NCBI GenBank assembly: GCA_031280145.1
Contig: JAITHB010000140.1
Span: forward strand, 1 to 44,366
Origin: Oscillospiraceae bacterium
GTDB taxonomy: Bacteria > Bacillota > Clostridia > Christensenellales > Aristaeellaceae
Length of the DNA stretch: 44,366 nt
Direction of reading: 5' to 3'
Part shown: in pieces, positions 4,999 to 28,849 of the stretch
Layout: each line of letters starts with the position of its first letter
How positions within the stretch are numbered: position 1 is the first letter of the stretch
The notes under the pieces: generated by a model
Database searches by the model: none
What the model was told of the DNA's origin: nothing
What the model saw: only the letters and a program-made list of their open reading frames with translations
Translations under genes and position numbers: made by a program

Positions 4999-5080
4999 GT
5001 AATTAGAAATTAGGAGTGAGGGATTATAGAACGCACCTTCGTACTCTCATTCCTAATTCCTCACTCCTAATTCCTAATTA
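4999..5080. repeat. Inverted repeat of ATTAGGAATTAGGAGTGAGG type
   Basis: The left arm (about 4999-5027) is purine-rich with the AATTAGGAGTGAGG motif. The right arm (about 5051-5080) is its near-perfect reverse complement, with a loop of about 23 nt. The right arm ends about 5 nt before the L,D-transpeptidase start codon at 5086. It could form a strong RNA stem that ends ferredoxin transcription or controls the next gene. A similar arrangement occurs at 21983-22110. Confidence 0.75.
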
Positions 5081-17143: not shown

Positions 17144-18280
17144 TCAGATTCCGTTCCTCGCGATATCCATCACCGCCGTCAGAAGCGCGTCGACGTCCGC
17201 CTTCGTGTTGCTTATTCCGACGGACGCGCGCGCCGCGCCCAGATTAATCGTGCCGTAATGCGTATGCACCGCAGGCGCGCAATGCAAGCCGCCGCGAACG
17301 CCGATGTGTCTGCGGTTCAGCTCCGTCGCAACCTGCCCCGAACTGTATCCGTCTACGTTGAACGGAACGACGGCGCAATCGGGCGCGCGGTTCGTCAGCG
17401 TCTTTACGCCGCCGATGCTCTGCAGCTCGTTCCACAGGTAGTCGCCGAGTACCTTCTCGTGCGCGTAGAACGCTTCGCGCCGCGCGTTTACCATGCGCGT
17501 GCCGACCAGCAAGCCCGCGATACCCACGGCGTTCAGCGTGCCGCTCTCGTACGCTTCGGGAAGCTCGTCGGGCTGAATCATCGATTCCGAGGAAGAACCC
17601 GTGCCGCCCTCGCGGAACGGCTCAAGCGCAACGCCTTCCCTTATGTACAGACCGCCTGTTCCCATCGGTCCCAGCAATCCCTTATGCCCCGGAAACGCGA
17701 GCATGTCGCAGCCAATCTTCTTCACGTCAACTTCAAGCATACCCAGCGACTGCGCGCCGTCCACAAGAAACAGCACGCCGTGCTTCGCCGCGACCTTTCC
17801 GATCTCGACGACAGGCTGCGCAATACCCGTGACGTTTGAAACATGGTTAACCACAATCAGCTTCGTGTTCGGTTGAACCGCGGCTTCTATCTGTTCCGCA
17901 GAAACATATCCCTCGTCTCCGGGCGCGAGCAGCGACCATGTGATGAGTCCCTTTTGCACCATCCCGTTTATCGGACGCAAAGCGGAGTTGTGTTCCAGCA
18001 TGGTTGTGATAACGTGGTCGCCCGCCTTCACGCAGCCGAATATCGCAAGGTTCAGCGCGTCCGTGCAGTTGAACCCGAACGAGATCAGCTCGGGATTGTC
18101 GTTGTTTATAAGTTTGCTTATTTCCTCGCGGCAGTTCCACACGACGCGTCCCGCGGCGAGCGAAAGCGTATGCCCCGCGCGGCCTGGGTTTGCTCCGATC
18201 GTCCGCATTGCGCCCGCGACCGCGTTTATCACTTTTTCGGGCTTGGGGAAAGAAGTCGCCGCGTTATCAAGGTATATCAT
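17144..18280 (-). CDS. Class V aminotransferase, cysteine desulfurase family
   Basis: A 378-residue PLP enzyme that would take sulfur (or selenium) from cysteine (or selenocysteine). The N-terminus MIYLDNAATSFPKPE is typical. The PLP lysine sits in FPGHKGLLGPMGTGGLY (about residue 199), PLP contacts include MLEHNSALRP and LVDGAQSLGM, and the catalytic cysteine is in RGGLHCAPAVHTHYG near residue 340. The short CsdB-like form with PGHKGLLGP is common in anaerobes beside selD, yedF and DUF3343 genes. Here a DUF3343 gene is divergent 300 nt away, so a role in sulfur/selenium transfer is reasonable. The start has AAGGAG immediately upstream, abutting a GC-rich dispersed repeat. It is convergent with murA. 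Confidence 0.9.
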   Translation of the reverse strand: MIYLDNAATSFPKPEKVINAVAGAMRTIGANPGRAGHTLSLAAGRVVWNCREEISKLINNDNPELISFGFNCTDALNLAIFGCVKAGDHVITTMLEHNSALRPINGMVQKGLITWSLLAPGDEGYVSAEQIEAAVQPNTKLIVVNHVSNVTGIAQPVVEIGKVAAKHGVLFLVDGAQSLGMLEVDVKKIGCDMLAFPGHKGLLGPMGTGGLYIREGVALEPFREGGTGSSSESMIQPDELPEAYESGTLNAVGIAGLLVGTRMVNARREAFYAHEKVLGDYLWNELQSIGGVKTLTNRAPDCAVVPFNVDGYSSGQVATELNRRHIGVRGGLHCAPAVHTHYGTINLGAARASVGISNTKADVDALLTAVMDIARNGI

Positions 18281-18586
18281 ATGTTTCTCCTTGCGGAAGG
18301 AACGCTATCGCGTTCCCCGGATTCGCGCTCTCTCGCTTTGCTCGAACCGCGCGCCGGAATTGATACCGAATCAATCCCGAAAAACCGATTCCATACAGTT
18401 TATTGATATTATCTATATGCGAAGGCGCGCAAAAAAACACCCACAAAATTTGTCCGCCGATCATTTTGTATCAAATAAACCGAATAATGCAAGGTCAAAT
18501 TGTAATCATAATGGTAGGCTTGCGCGTATATTATTTCCCGAGGGCTTTATCAGCTCGTTCGTATACATACAGTAGGAGTGATTATA
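18281..18586. other. Divergent intergenic region, cysteine desulfurase / DUF3343
   Basis: About 300 nt without a gene. The left part holds the dispersed GC-rich repeat (18291-18360). The rest is AT-richer, with a run of seven A at 18431 and no clear consensus promoter on either strand. No tRNA or riboswitch fold is obvious. Confidence 0.6.
18291..18360 (-). repeat. Dispersed GC-rich repeat, copy 1
   Basis: It shares TTGCGGAAGGAACGCT (16 nt), GCGTTCCCCGGATTCGCGC (19 nt) and CGCGCGCCGG with the reverse complement of 28342-28403. GGAACGC...GCGTTCC forms a small hairpin. Its end abuts the ribosome site of the cysteine desulfurase gene. Confidence 0.8.
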
Positions 18587-21970: not shown

Positions 21971-21982
21971 CTTTCCTTTAGT

Positions 21983-22110
21983 TAAGAGGTACGAGGTAAA
22001 AGGTACGAGGTAAGAGGTACGAGGTTTTGGTTTTAGCATTCATTCGTACAAGTCCAACAACCAACTCTTACCTCGTACCTTTTACCTCGTACCTTTTACC
22101 TTTTACCTCT
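21983..22110. repeat. Long inverted repeat built from GGTACGAGGTAAAA units
   Basis: The arm at about 21983-22024 repeats AAGAGGTACGAGGTAAAAGG units. The arm at about 22068-22110 is its reverse complement (CTTACCTCGTACCTTTTACC). The loop is about 43 nt. On the transcribed minus strand the purine arm comes first and the pyrimidine arm runs up to the response-regulator ribosome site. It fills the whole gap between mutS2 and the regulator. Confidence 0.8.
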
Positions 22111-24504
22111 TCACTTTACTTTCACAACCGTTACGCCGTCCTCGCCCTCGCCGTACTTGCCCAGACGATATTCGCTCACCTGCGGATGCTTGCGCAAATG
22201 CTGCTGCACGCCGCTGCGTAGCACTCCCGTTCCCTTGCCGTGTATGATTGAAACTTCGCCGAGCGAGGAAATCTGCGCGTCGTCAAGGAAGCGGTCGACT
22301 TCGGGCAGCGCTTCGTCCAGCGCCATACCGCGCAAGTCAAGCTCGCGGCGAACCTCGCGCGTCTTCACGTCTACGGTCGAGAACGCCTTGCCAGCAGTCC
22401 TCTCCTTCTTCTCTCCATTTTTCTCGCCATTCCTTTGGGAAGAGATTTTGCGAAGCTTCGAGACGTGGACGGAGAGCGTCATCGCGCCCGCCATGACACG
22501 CGCCTCGCCTTTGGAGTTCGGCGATTCTATCACCTTGCCCTGCGTGTTCAGGTTAATCAGATGAACGGTGTCGCCGGGCTTAATCTCCCCCGATTCGCCC
22601 TTTACAATCGGTTCGTCGCTTCGCTCGCCCTCGCCCATCGCGTCTATGCTCTCGCGCAGCCGTTGGCTCATGCGTTCCGCGTCGGCGTTGGTGTATGAAT
22701 CCGCGCTTTTCACGCTCGCCTTCATCTTGCGCAAATCAGAAAGAATCGTATCCGCCTCGCTTCTTGCGCGCTCAAGAATCTTCCTCGCTTCCCTCTTCGC
22801 CTCATATGAAGCGTCTGCTTTCTCGCGCGCAACTCTTTGGCGAAGCTCCTCCGCCTCCTGACGGAGCTTCAGCATGTCGCGGCTCGCTTCCTCCGCGAGC
22901 TGCCGCTCGCGCTGCGCCACCTTCCTGTGATACTCCGCGTTCGCGATAACATCCTCAAAGCGAATCTGGTCTGTCGACAGAAGCGTCTTCGCGGCGTCAA
23001 TCCAATTATCGGAAAGCCCTAGCCGCCTGCTTATCTCAAACGCGTTGCTCTTGCCCGGCACTCCAATTGTCAGCCTAAAGGTCGGTCTAAGCGTCTCAAC
23101 GTCAAACTCCGCGGAAGCGTTCTCCACGCCGTCAACCGTCAGCGCAAACGCTTTAAGCTCGCTGTAGTGCGTCGTCGCCATCGTGCGAATCTTACGCTCA
23201 AGCAATCCTTTAAGGATAACCTGCGCCAGCGCCGCGCCTTCCGTCGGGTCCGTGCCCGCGCCAAGCTCGTCGAACAGCGCGAGCGAATTCTCGTCCACTT
23301 TGTTCAGAATGCTCACTATGTTCGTCATGTGCGAAGAGAAAGTGGACAGCGACTGCTCTATGCTCTGCTCGTCGCCGATGTCCGCGAACACATGGTTAAA
23401 CACCGCAAGCTCCGTCCCGAGGTCTGCGGGCGGCTGAAGCCCCGCCTGCGCCATGAGCGTGAACAGCCCGACCGTCTTTAGCGTAACGGTTTTGCCGCCG
23501 GTGTTTGGCCCCGTTATGACAAGCGTGGTGAACATGTCGCCAAGCCACAGGTCAATCGGCACGACCTTCTCCGCGTCCAGCAGCGGATGCCTTCCGCGAA
23601 TAATCCTTATTCTGCCGCTCTTGTTAAGCTTGGGCACAGCGCCGCGCATCATCCGCGACAGCTTGCCCTTCGCGAACAGCAAGTCAAGCTCCGCCAGAAC
23701 TTTCAGGTTGGCGGAAAGAAGCGCGGCTTCATCCGCCACGAGAGAGGACAGCGCGGCGAGTATGCGCTCTATCTCGCGCCGCTCCTCCGCCAGACGCGCC
23801 TTGAGGTCGTTGCCTATTTCGACTACCGCCATCGGTTCCACGAACAGCGTCGCGCCCGTGGACGACTGGTCGTGGATAAGCCCCGGCACGGAGGAACGCG
23901 CTTCCGCTTTCACCGGAATGACATAGCGGTCGTTGCGCTGCGTGATGATGTTGTCCTGCAAGTACTTTTGCATGGAGGAGCTGTGGATGATGGAATTCAG
24001 CTTGTCGCGCATCCTGTCGTGACACTGCCGAATCTGCCTGCGTATGCTCGCAAGCTGCGTACTCGCGCGGTCCGCAATCTCGTCGTCGCCCAGTATCGCG
24101 GACTCTATCTCCTCCTCGATGCTGCGGAACGTGGCGAGCCTTGACGCCATCGCGGAGACGCGCGGCGTATTCTCCCTTTCGGTCACAAGCGCGCTTCTCG
24201 CGGCTCTCGCGGCTCGCATTGAAGCCGCGCAGTCAAGCAGCGCGCGCGGCGACAGCGACGCCCCGACGCTCGCCAGCTTGAAGTATGACGAGACGTCCTC
24301 AAACGGAATCAGCGGATGGTGCGGAAGCTGCGTGAGCACGACGACCGCTTCCTCCGTTATCTCTTGCATCGAAATTACTTCGTCGTAATCGGAGCTTGGC
24401 GTAAGCGCTTGCGCGAGAGCGCGTCCGAGCGGCGACACGCACTGCTCCGCCAAAAGGGTTCGTATCTTATAGAATTCAAGAACGCGAAGAGCTTTATCTT
24501 CCAT
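22111..24504 (-). CDS. mutS2: MutS2 ATPase/endonuclease with Smr domain
   Basis: 797 residues, full length. It lacks the mismatch-recognition domain of MutS. The clamp/lever region spans about 1-290, the ABC-type ATPase has Walker A ITGPNTGGKTVTLKT (about 330-344), the signature LSTFSSHMTNI, Walker B SLALFDELGAGTDPTEG and a switch THYSELK. A coiled coil follows (about 515-620) with a KOW-like segment (PGDTVHLINLNTQGKV). The C-terminal Smr domain (about 715-797) has LDLRGM and IIHGKGTGVLR. Family knowledge: MutS2 restrains recombination and, in B. subtilis, rescues collided ribosomes. It begins 1 nt after the zapA stop, so the two are co-translated. Confidence 0.96.
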   Translation of the reverse strand: MEDKALRVLEFYKIRTLLAEQCVSPLGRALAQALTPSSDYDEVISMQEITEEAVVVLTQLPHHPLIPFEDVSSYFKLASVGASLSPRALLDCAASMRAARAARSALVTERENTPRVSAMASRLATFRSIEEEIESAILGDDEIADRASTQLASIRRQIRQCHDRMRDKLNSIIHSSSMQKYLQDNIITQRNDRYVIPVKAEARSSVPGLIHDQSSTGATLFVEPMAVVEIGNDLKARLAEERREIERILAALSSLVADEAALLSANLKVLAELDLLFAKGKLSRMMRGAVPKLNKSGRIRIIRGRHPLLDAEKVVPIDLWLGDMFTTLVITGPNTGGKTVTLKTVGLFTLMAQAGLQPPADLGTELAVFNHVFADIGDEQSIEQSLSTFSSHMTNIVSILNKVDENSLALFDELGAGTDPTEGAALAQVILKGLLERKIRTMATTHYSELKAFALTVDGVENASAEFDVETLRPTFRLTIGVPGKSNAFEISRRLGLSDNWIDAAKTLLSTDQIRFEDVIANAEYHRKVAQRERQLAEEASRDMLKLRQEAEELRQRVAREKADASYEAKREARKILERARSEADTILSDLRKMKASVKSADSYTNADAERMSQRLRESIDAMGEGERSDEPIVKGESGEIKPGDTVHLINLNTQGKVIESPNSKGEARVMAGAMTLSVHVSKLRKISSQRNGEKNGEKKERTAGKAFSTVDVKTREVRRELDLRGMALDEALPEVDRFLDDAQISSLGEVSIIHGKGTGVLRSGVQQHLRKHPQVSEYRLGKYGEGEDGVTVVKVK

Positions 24505-28021: not shown

Positions 28022-28849
28022 ATGAAACGTTCCTTTTCAGAACGCGTGAAAGCGGAGCTTGCAAGCGTAACGGAGGACGGCGCGTCGCGCGACTTGGCGT
28101 CGGCGCTGCTTTCAAGCGGCGGCGAGCTTGACCTTTTGCCGGAAGAGATTCTTCGCGGCGCAAAATCCACGAAGGCGTTTCTGCGCGGAGTGTTCCTGTC
28201 TTGCGGCACCGTCTCCGACCCCGCGAAGGCGCACCATCTGGAGCTTTCCTTTCACGACGAGCAGTTGGCGACGCTGGTTCAAACTCTTCTTACAAAGCTT
28301 CACGTCGACGCAAGGATTCTGGAACGCAAGAGCGAATCTTCATTACCGGCGCGCGGACAGAGGTCGCGCGAATCCGGGGAACGCACGAGCGTTCCTTCCG
28401 CAAAAGAGACAGACGCGCGCTTTGCAAAGCGGTCGAAAACATATGTTTTATATATGAAGGAAGCGGAAGCGATAGCGGGGCTGCTCGCCATGCTGGGCGC
28501 GGGCGGCGCTTATTGCGAGTATGAGAACGCGATAATCTTCCGCGGTCTGCGCAACAAGGCGAACCGACAAGCCAACTGCGACAACGCGAACACCGATAAG
28601 GCGGTGGAAACGGCGGCGCGGCAGCTTGAAGCGATTCGCAGGCTCGACGAAACGACAGGGCTTCATAATCTTCCGCCGCAGCTGGAAGACGCCGCGCGCA
28701 AGCGTCTTCTTCACGCGGACCTTCCTCTCGCCGAACTTGCGAAGCTGCTGTCGCCGCGCGTCGGAAAGTCGGGCGCAAACCACAGGCTGCGCAAGCTGGA
28801 GGAACTGGCAAAACTGGCAAAACTGGCGGAACCGAAGCGGACGAATTAG
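28022..28849 (+). CDS. whiA: WhiA-family DNA-binding protein, rearranged
   Basis: 275 residues, shorter than the usual 310-320. WhiA joins a degenerate LAGLIDADG domain to a helix-turn-helix and affects division and chromosome segregation in Firmicutes. Two changes are visible. First, about 70-75 residues of the N-terminal half are missing: ASALLSSGGELDLLPEEILR runs almost directly into KAFLRGVFLSCGTVSDP. Second, a 34-residue polar segment (104-137) sits between ILERK and KTYVLYMKEAEAI, which are contiguous in B. subtilis WhiA; it is encoded by a dispersed repeat. The C-terminal HTH (NHRLRKLEELAKL) and the RNKANRQANCDNANTDK motif are intact. It begins 10 nt after murB without a clear ribosome site. 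The function may be kept or lost; the frame is open. Confidence 0.85.
   Translation: MKRSFSERVKAELASVTEDGASRDLASALLSSGGELDLLPEEILRGAKSTKAFLRGVFLSCGTVSDPAKAHHLELSFHDEQLATLVQTLLTKLHVDARILERKSESSLPARGQRSRESGERTSVPSAKETDARFAKRSKTYVLYMKEAEAIAGLLAMLGAGGAYCEYENAIIFRGLRNKANRQANCDNANTDKAVETAARQLEAIRRLDETTGLHNLPPQLEDAARKRLLHADLPLAELAKLLSPRVGKSGANHRLRKLEELAKLAKLAEPKRTN
28342..28403 (+). repeat. Dispersed GC-rich repeat, copy 2, inside whiA
   Basis: This is the reverse complement of the element at 18291-18360: blocks of 16, 19 and 10 nt are identical. It lies within codons for the extra 34 residues of WhiA (28331-28432) and keeps the reading frame open. Confidence 0.8.

Follow-up and report, generated by a model that had tools for sequence, protein, structure and literature searches.

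A dispersed palindromic element carried in frame by WhiA and other conserved proteins of a Christensenellales genome

In a gut-type Clostridia genome placed in Christensenellales, the WhiA gene contains an in-frame insert that holds a full copy of a short, dispersed palindromic element, designated here family AB. The window, that is, the whole stretch of DNA analysed (44,366 nucleotides), forms part of a metagenome-assembled genome (MAG) of 2.19 Mb, 189 contigs and 93% completeness. The WhiA insert is interpreted as a copy of a lineage-specific, non-autonomous dispersed element, copied to new sites and tolerated in genes, with a probability of about 0.86. Dozens of further copies are present, about 15 of them in genes, which bears out the proposal of the initial annotation that a dispersed repeat had entered WhiA and remained open. 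A second, nested palindrome family, not described in that annotation, is also present.

The WhiA insert and the element within it

The whiA gene, positions 28022–28849 of the window, plus strand, encodes a protein of 275 aa with the Pfam domains PF14527 (LAGLIDADG_WhiA) and PF02650 (HTH_WhiA), which aligns to Thermotoga maritima WhiA (3hyi). The insert comprises 35 codons, residues 104–138, at 28331–28435 on the plus strand, and is without counterpart in relatives. Homologues have nothing between the positions of its flanking residues, 103 and 139: in the alignment these pair with the neighbouring chain positions 165 and 166 of 3hyi, and 16 of 16 WhiA relatives from the family and the order are contiguous at this site. 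The initial annotation had stated such contiguity for B. subtilis WhiA and had also placed the insert in WhiA, but with 34 residues ending at 28432 and with the repeat taken as the whole of it. Only 28344–28402, minus strand, is repeat: a full 59-nt AB copy, supported by the covariance model R1 (86.9 bits, E 7.4e-18) and by the 19-copy alignment. The strand complementary to this copy is translated in WhiA as LPARGQRSRESGERTSVPSA. Hairpin A of the copy, GGAACGC-4-GCGTTCC, is an exact pattern match at 28378–28395, minus strand.

The repeat accounts for about 59 of the 105 bases of the insert, just over half. The remainder, 28403–28435 on the plus strand, is unique sequence with the perfect palindrome CGCTTTGCAAAGCG. 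It encodes WhiA residues ~128 to 138. No convincing second copy of these last ~33 nt was found in the genome, and the segment was rejected as a further repeat. Within 28403–28449, CGCTTTGCAAAGCG is followed shortly after by another perfect palindrome, AAAACATATGTTTT.

About 103 WhiA residues precede the insert (28022–28330), compared with about 165 in 3hyi, and the N-terminal part is also divergent in that alignment. Judged from the alignment, some 60 residues seem to have been lost from the LAGLIDADG region at the N-terminus. A single-sequence AlphaFold model of WhiA (pLDDT 42) was too poor for use.

An intergenic AB copy, in which the second hairpin is a longer variant, lies at 18292–18359, plus strand (R1 62.2 bits, E 7.4e-12). 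The gene 17144–18280, on the minus strand, has its start codon 11 nt downstream of this copy. A match of 18291–18360 to the WhiA insert in blocks of 16, 19 and 10 bases had been reported, and these blocks are visible in the sequence. Positions 18291–18328 and the reverse complement of 28366–28403 are 92% identical over 38 nt; a further matching block, CGCGCGCCGG, lies past the variant loop.

Family AB: structure, copies and host genes

Copies were located by sequence searches and by retrieval of individual stretches. A 72-nt query taken from WhiA gave 44 matches in the genome, and R1 gave 51 copies at E<0.01. Neither of the refuting conditions named in the initial annotation holds: further copies are present, in both coding and intergenic positions, and the insert is missing from relatives. 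The perfect hairpin A, GGAACGC-N(1-7)-GCGTTCC, occurs 29 times in the genome, against 0 for the reversed control pattern.

Dispersed, palindromic, about 54–59 nt in length, shorter than the 60–70 bp first assigned. The order of parts is hairpin A, CCGG, hairpin B. Full copies (19) aligned readily over 59 columns with a mean identity of 92%, and the consensus is TGCGGAAGGAACGCTTGCGCGTTCCCCGGATTCGCGCGACCTCCGTCCGCGCGCCGGAA. The fold consists of two adjacent hairpins with 19 pairs. The arms of hairpin A are GGAACGC/GCGTTCC; hairpin B is CCGG...CCGG around CGCGCGAC/GTCCGCGCG. Hairpin B is variable, several copies, including 18292–18359, having other GC-rich inner stems inside the same CCGG borders. 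Five pairs are altered on both sides, against 0.4 expected in shuffles and 0 to 2 in a slid-pairing control. Whether these paired changes stem from a need to keep the structure or from templated correction of quasi-palindromes cannot be distinguished here.

The consensus is free of stop codons in 6 of 6 frames. The same holds for 25% of structure-preserving random sequences of like composition, which makes it unremarkable for so GC-rich a hairpin, and for 3.7% of genome windows. Six-frame openness was consequently rejected as evidence for selection: since a quarter of such random sequences are also open, it is permissive and no proof of selection for codability.

In-gene copies were called from open frames through each copy and from codon log-odds of the flanks, trained on window genes. 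About 15 copies lie inside open reading frames with coding-like flanks or with homology on both sides. All of these (~15 of 15) keep the frame open, and none is frameshifted. With the end of the element as reference, the copies are read in frames -1 (5 copies), +2 (5), +0 (2), -2 (2) and +1 (1); with five frames in use, the same DNA specifies about five different peptides. Hosts belong mostly to conserved Pfam families. They are WhiA (strongest class of evidence, with relatives and a solved structure), a GH3 glycosidase, an MrfB-like exonuclease (RNase_H_2) and a metal P-type ATPase (each with a gap against relatives and a PDB homologue), an aconitase-like dehydratase (gap at the element against relatives), an HI0933-like flavoprotein (Pfam), Rho, a nucleotidyl transferase, an S24/HTH protein, a GH39-like protein, an SH3 protein, a CARDB surface protein, a GH20 enzyme, and a spore-permease-like protein and a DUF1538 protein, both with the copy near the C terminus. 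The five hosts compared with relatives and solved structures are the strongest cases, and those resting on an open frame and codon score alone are weaker.

Family and order relatives of the P-ATPase, the aconitase-like enzyme and GH3 are contiguous at the AB site, as are those of the MrfB-like exonuclease except for a short variable loop. In the P-ATPase, chain position 617 of ZntA (4umv) is followed by 619 around query residues 441–463. GH3 shows a 20-residue gap against a xylosidase from the PDB, and the MrfB-like exonuclease shows gaps in the element region against MrfB (8un9). In the HI0933-like protein the element is placed after the GAGAAG motif and before the strand that follows it; this position is only inferred, because PDB alignments break at that point. 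The Rho copy lies in an N-terminal linker that is variable among relatives, so no usable comparison is available there. In every aligned host the two halves are collinear with a single homologue, an argument against misassembly.

No gene was seen to be broken by a copy into two frames. In a single case the two flanks are strongly coding but differ in frame, and this copy lies at a response regulator/histidine kinase junction. The window has a coding density near 0.90 (a rough value); with about 15 of the 51 copies in genes, coding sequence is thus strongly depleted of AB. This would be expected if most in-gene insertions were lost.

A few further copies lengthen a C-terminus. At the response regulator/histidine kinase junction (L130:3452-3552), a composite with a family C palindrome between hairpins A and B lengthens the C-terminus of the regulator. 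In a cytidine deaminase (L018:452-510) and a spore permease (L110:75-214), the AB copy provides the stop codon of the host; the loop TTAC gives TAA on the opposite strand, a stop in the sixth frame.

Family C and distribution outside this genome

The family C palindrome, GGGGTCCCCGACAAAACCGCAGTTTTGTCGGGGTGG, is about 36–41 nt in length and unrelated to AB. Present in about 30 or more places in the genome. It lies between hairpins A and B in about 6 composite copies, the A-C-B composites being about 100 nt in length, and is also nested within itself. In RlmN (L068:595-1752), a C palindrome nested in C is read in frame as about 27 residues, and this insert falls exactly where 6fz6 is contiguous. 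Topoisomerase III (TopB) and an NfnA/GltD-like enzyme also carry C in frame, and a LysA-like decarboxylase probably carries an in-frame copy near its C-terminus.

The host is placed by inference in Christensenellales, not Rickettsiales, its nearest Rho proteins being found in Christensenellales-like MAGs. The 23-nt AB core was not found in a collection of genomes of ~85,000 species, from which the window's own or very near genomes were possibly left out. Scans of about 40 relatives and of 395 further genomes from the order gave no true AB match; plasmid and phage collections gave no match, nor did any Rfam family. Family C was not found in relatives or in the order. Three candidates were rejected: a viral contig with an 18-nt core pattern is a chance match in unrelated sequence, one hit from the scan of the order proved to be a T-tailed terminator with a stem resembling hairpin A, and another match is also unrelated. 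The literature searched names no such family for Christensenella; subscription papers were largely outside coverage, so its absence is not proved.

Proposed spread, alternatives and related elements

AB would copy itself to new sites by a mechanism not identified. Its spread would be non-autonomous and then filtered by selection for reading frame. Copies in genes would be tolerated where the net length is divisible by three, given that all six frames of the consensus are free of stop codons. Hosts would carry about 18–22 extra residues, probably in tolerant loops, and would remain under selection for an open frame. Family C would behave like AB and also settle between hairpins A and B. The copy number, the covariation of the hairpins, the in-frame position in many conserved genes and the absence from relatives are observed directly. 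That AB is mobile, that it is selfish or neutral, that the peptide is tolerated and that mRNA and protein keep the insert are all inferences, made without expression data. The sequence basis is a MAG assembly. The genus is represented by a single genome, so that no empty site in a sister strain can be shown, and a target-site duplication of AB is not established. The search for a mobilising enzyme was limited to Y1_Tnp and RVT_1, without DDE or other transposases: PF01797 (RAYT/Y1_Tnp) gave 0 matches in the 93%-complete MAG, and no reverse transcriptase gene (RVT_1) was found in it.

An origin of AB as a classical REP or MITE, mobilised in trans by a current or recently lost RAYT or IS transposase, would be compatible with the reading of AB as a non-autonomous dispersed element and would supply the missing mechanism. 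AB resembles REPs and MITEs in being small, palindromic, high-copy, lineage-specific and mosaic (PMC3733652, PMC10969869), and intragenic REPs are known (PMC3733652); it has no GTAG or CGTC tag at either end, however, no consistent target duplication is seen by eye, and the lack of a detected Y1_Tnp leaves this origin possible but doubtful. Alternatively, AB could serve mainly as a regulatory hairpin in RNA (terminator, attenuator or RNase III site) and be retained for that function, its in-gene copies being accidental. Most of the 51 copies are indeed not in genes, and several closely precede a start codon, as at 18292–18359 (11 nt before the start); an unrelated genome also has a terminator stem similar to the arms of hairpin A. 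An intrinsic terminator would be followed by a T-tract, which the copies lack; the second hairpin differs widely among copies, there is no Rfam match, and about 15 copies lie in genes, so that regulation as the main role is improbable.

Hardly any weight remains for an ordinary lineage-specific loop expansion of WhiA whose likeness to the intergenic copy would be due to chance or assembly error. No repeat corresponds to the 3'-terminal ~33 nt of the insert, and the N-terminal part of WhiA is divergent too; the WhiA copy is nevertheless recognised at E 7.4e-18, host halves collinear with the same homologue are not what misassembly gives, and copy number and the conserved hosts contradict it. 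The favoured reading remains that of a dispersed element. A broader version is tentative and held at somewhat less than even odds: two unrelated, modular, nestable hairpin families would have been acquired independently by a spore-forming Clostridia lineage and would spread in a structure-dependent manner without a recognisable transposase, repeatedly adding peptides in five frames to core enzymes.

Palindromic elements of Rickettsia (RPE) and Wolbachia are dispersed hairpins found between genes and in frame in conserved genes, which stay unbroken (Ogata et al. 2000, 2002, as described in PMC2229807, PMC3767692, PMC10969869). The likeness in principle that had been suggested is supported by AB lying in frame in about 15 unrelated conserved host genes. 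AB works like RPE and is not a member of that family. RPE are about 100–150 bp in length, whereas AB is 54–59 nt and only A-C-B composites reach ~100 nt; RPE are reported from Rickettsia and Wolbachia, and AB is found in a spore-forming Clostridia lineage of another phylum. Further differences are the lack of any match to the AB core in the ~85,000-species collection (RPE sequences themselves were not aligned), the use of five frames, and a second, nested palindrome family that is also coding in this Clostridia genome. REP/BIME sequences with RAYT are short palindromes in many copies, mosaic and in some cases intragenic (PMC3733652). AB is likewise short, palindromic, multicopy, mosaic and partly intragenic, but without GTAG/CGTC ends and in a genome where no Y1_Tnp gene was found. 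MITEs with reading frames (ERIC, Correia 107-bp) are non-autonomous and can fuse in frame to hosts (PMC2229807); ERIC and Correia elements are about 100–200 bp in length with terminal inverted repeats and usually target duplications, whereas AB consists of two tandem hairpins in which neither an end-to-end terminal inverted repeat nor a consistent duplication was seen.

Coding palindromic repeats are documented mainly in the Rickettsia/Wolbachia lineage, and the present genome is a tangible example from an unrelated phylum, in which two families occur together and five frames are used. If the broader version is true, coding palindromic elements are no peculiarity of Rickettsiales. Movement of such elements, and tolerance of proteins to insertions of roughly 18–27 residues, become testable outside obligate intracellular bacteria.

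Two other repeats occur in the window. Inverted arrays of a 14-nt unit (AGGTAAGAGGTACGAGGT-like) lie at 21980–22115, with 46-nt arms, 91% complementary and 44 nt apart. At 5000–5080, an AT-rich inverted repeat, TAATTAGAAATTAGGAGTGAGGGATTA, has arms that are 93% complementary and is apparently intergenic.
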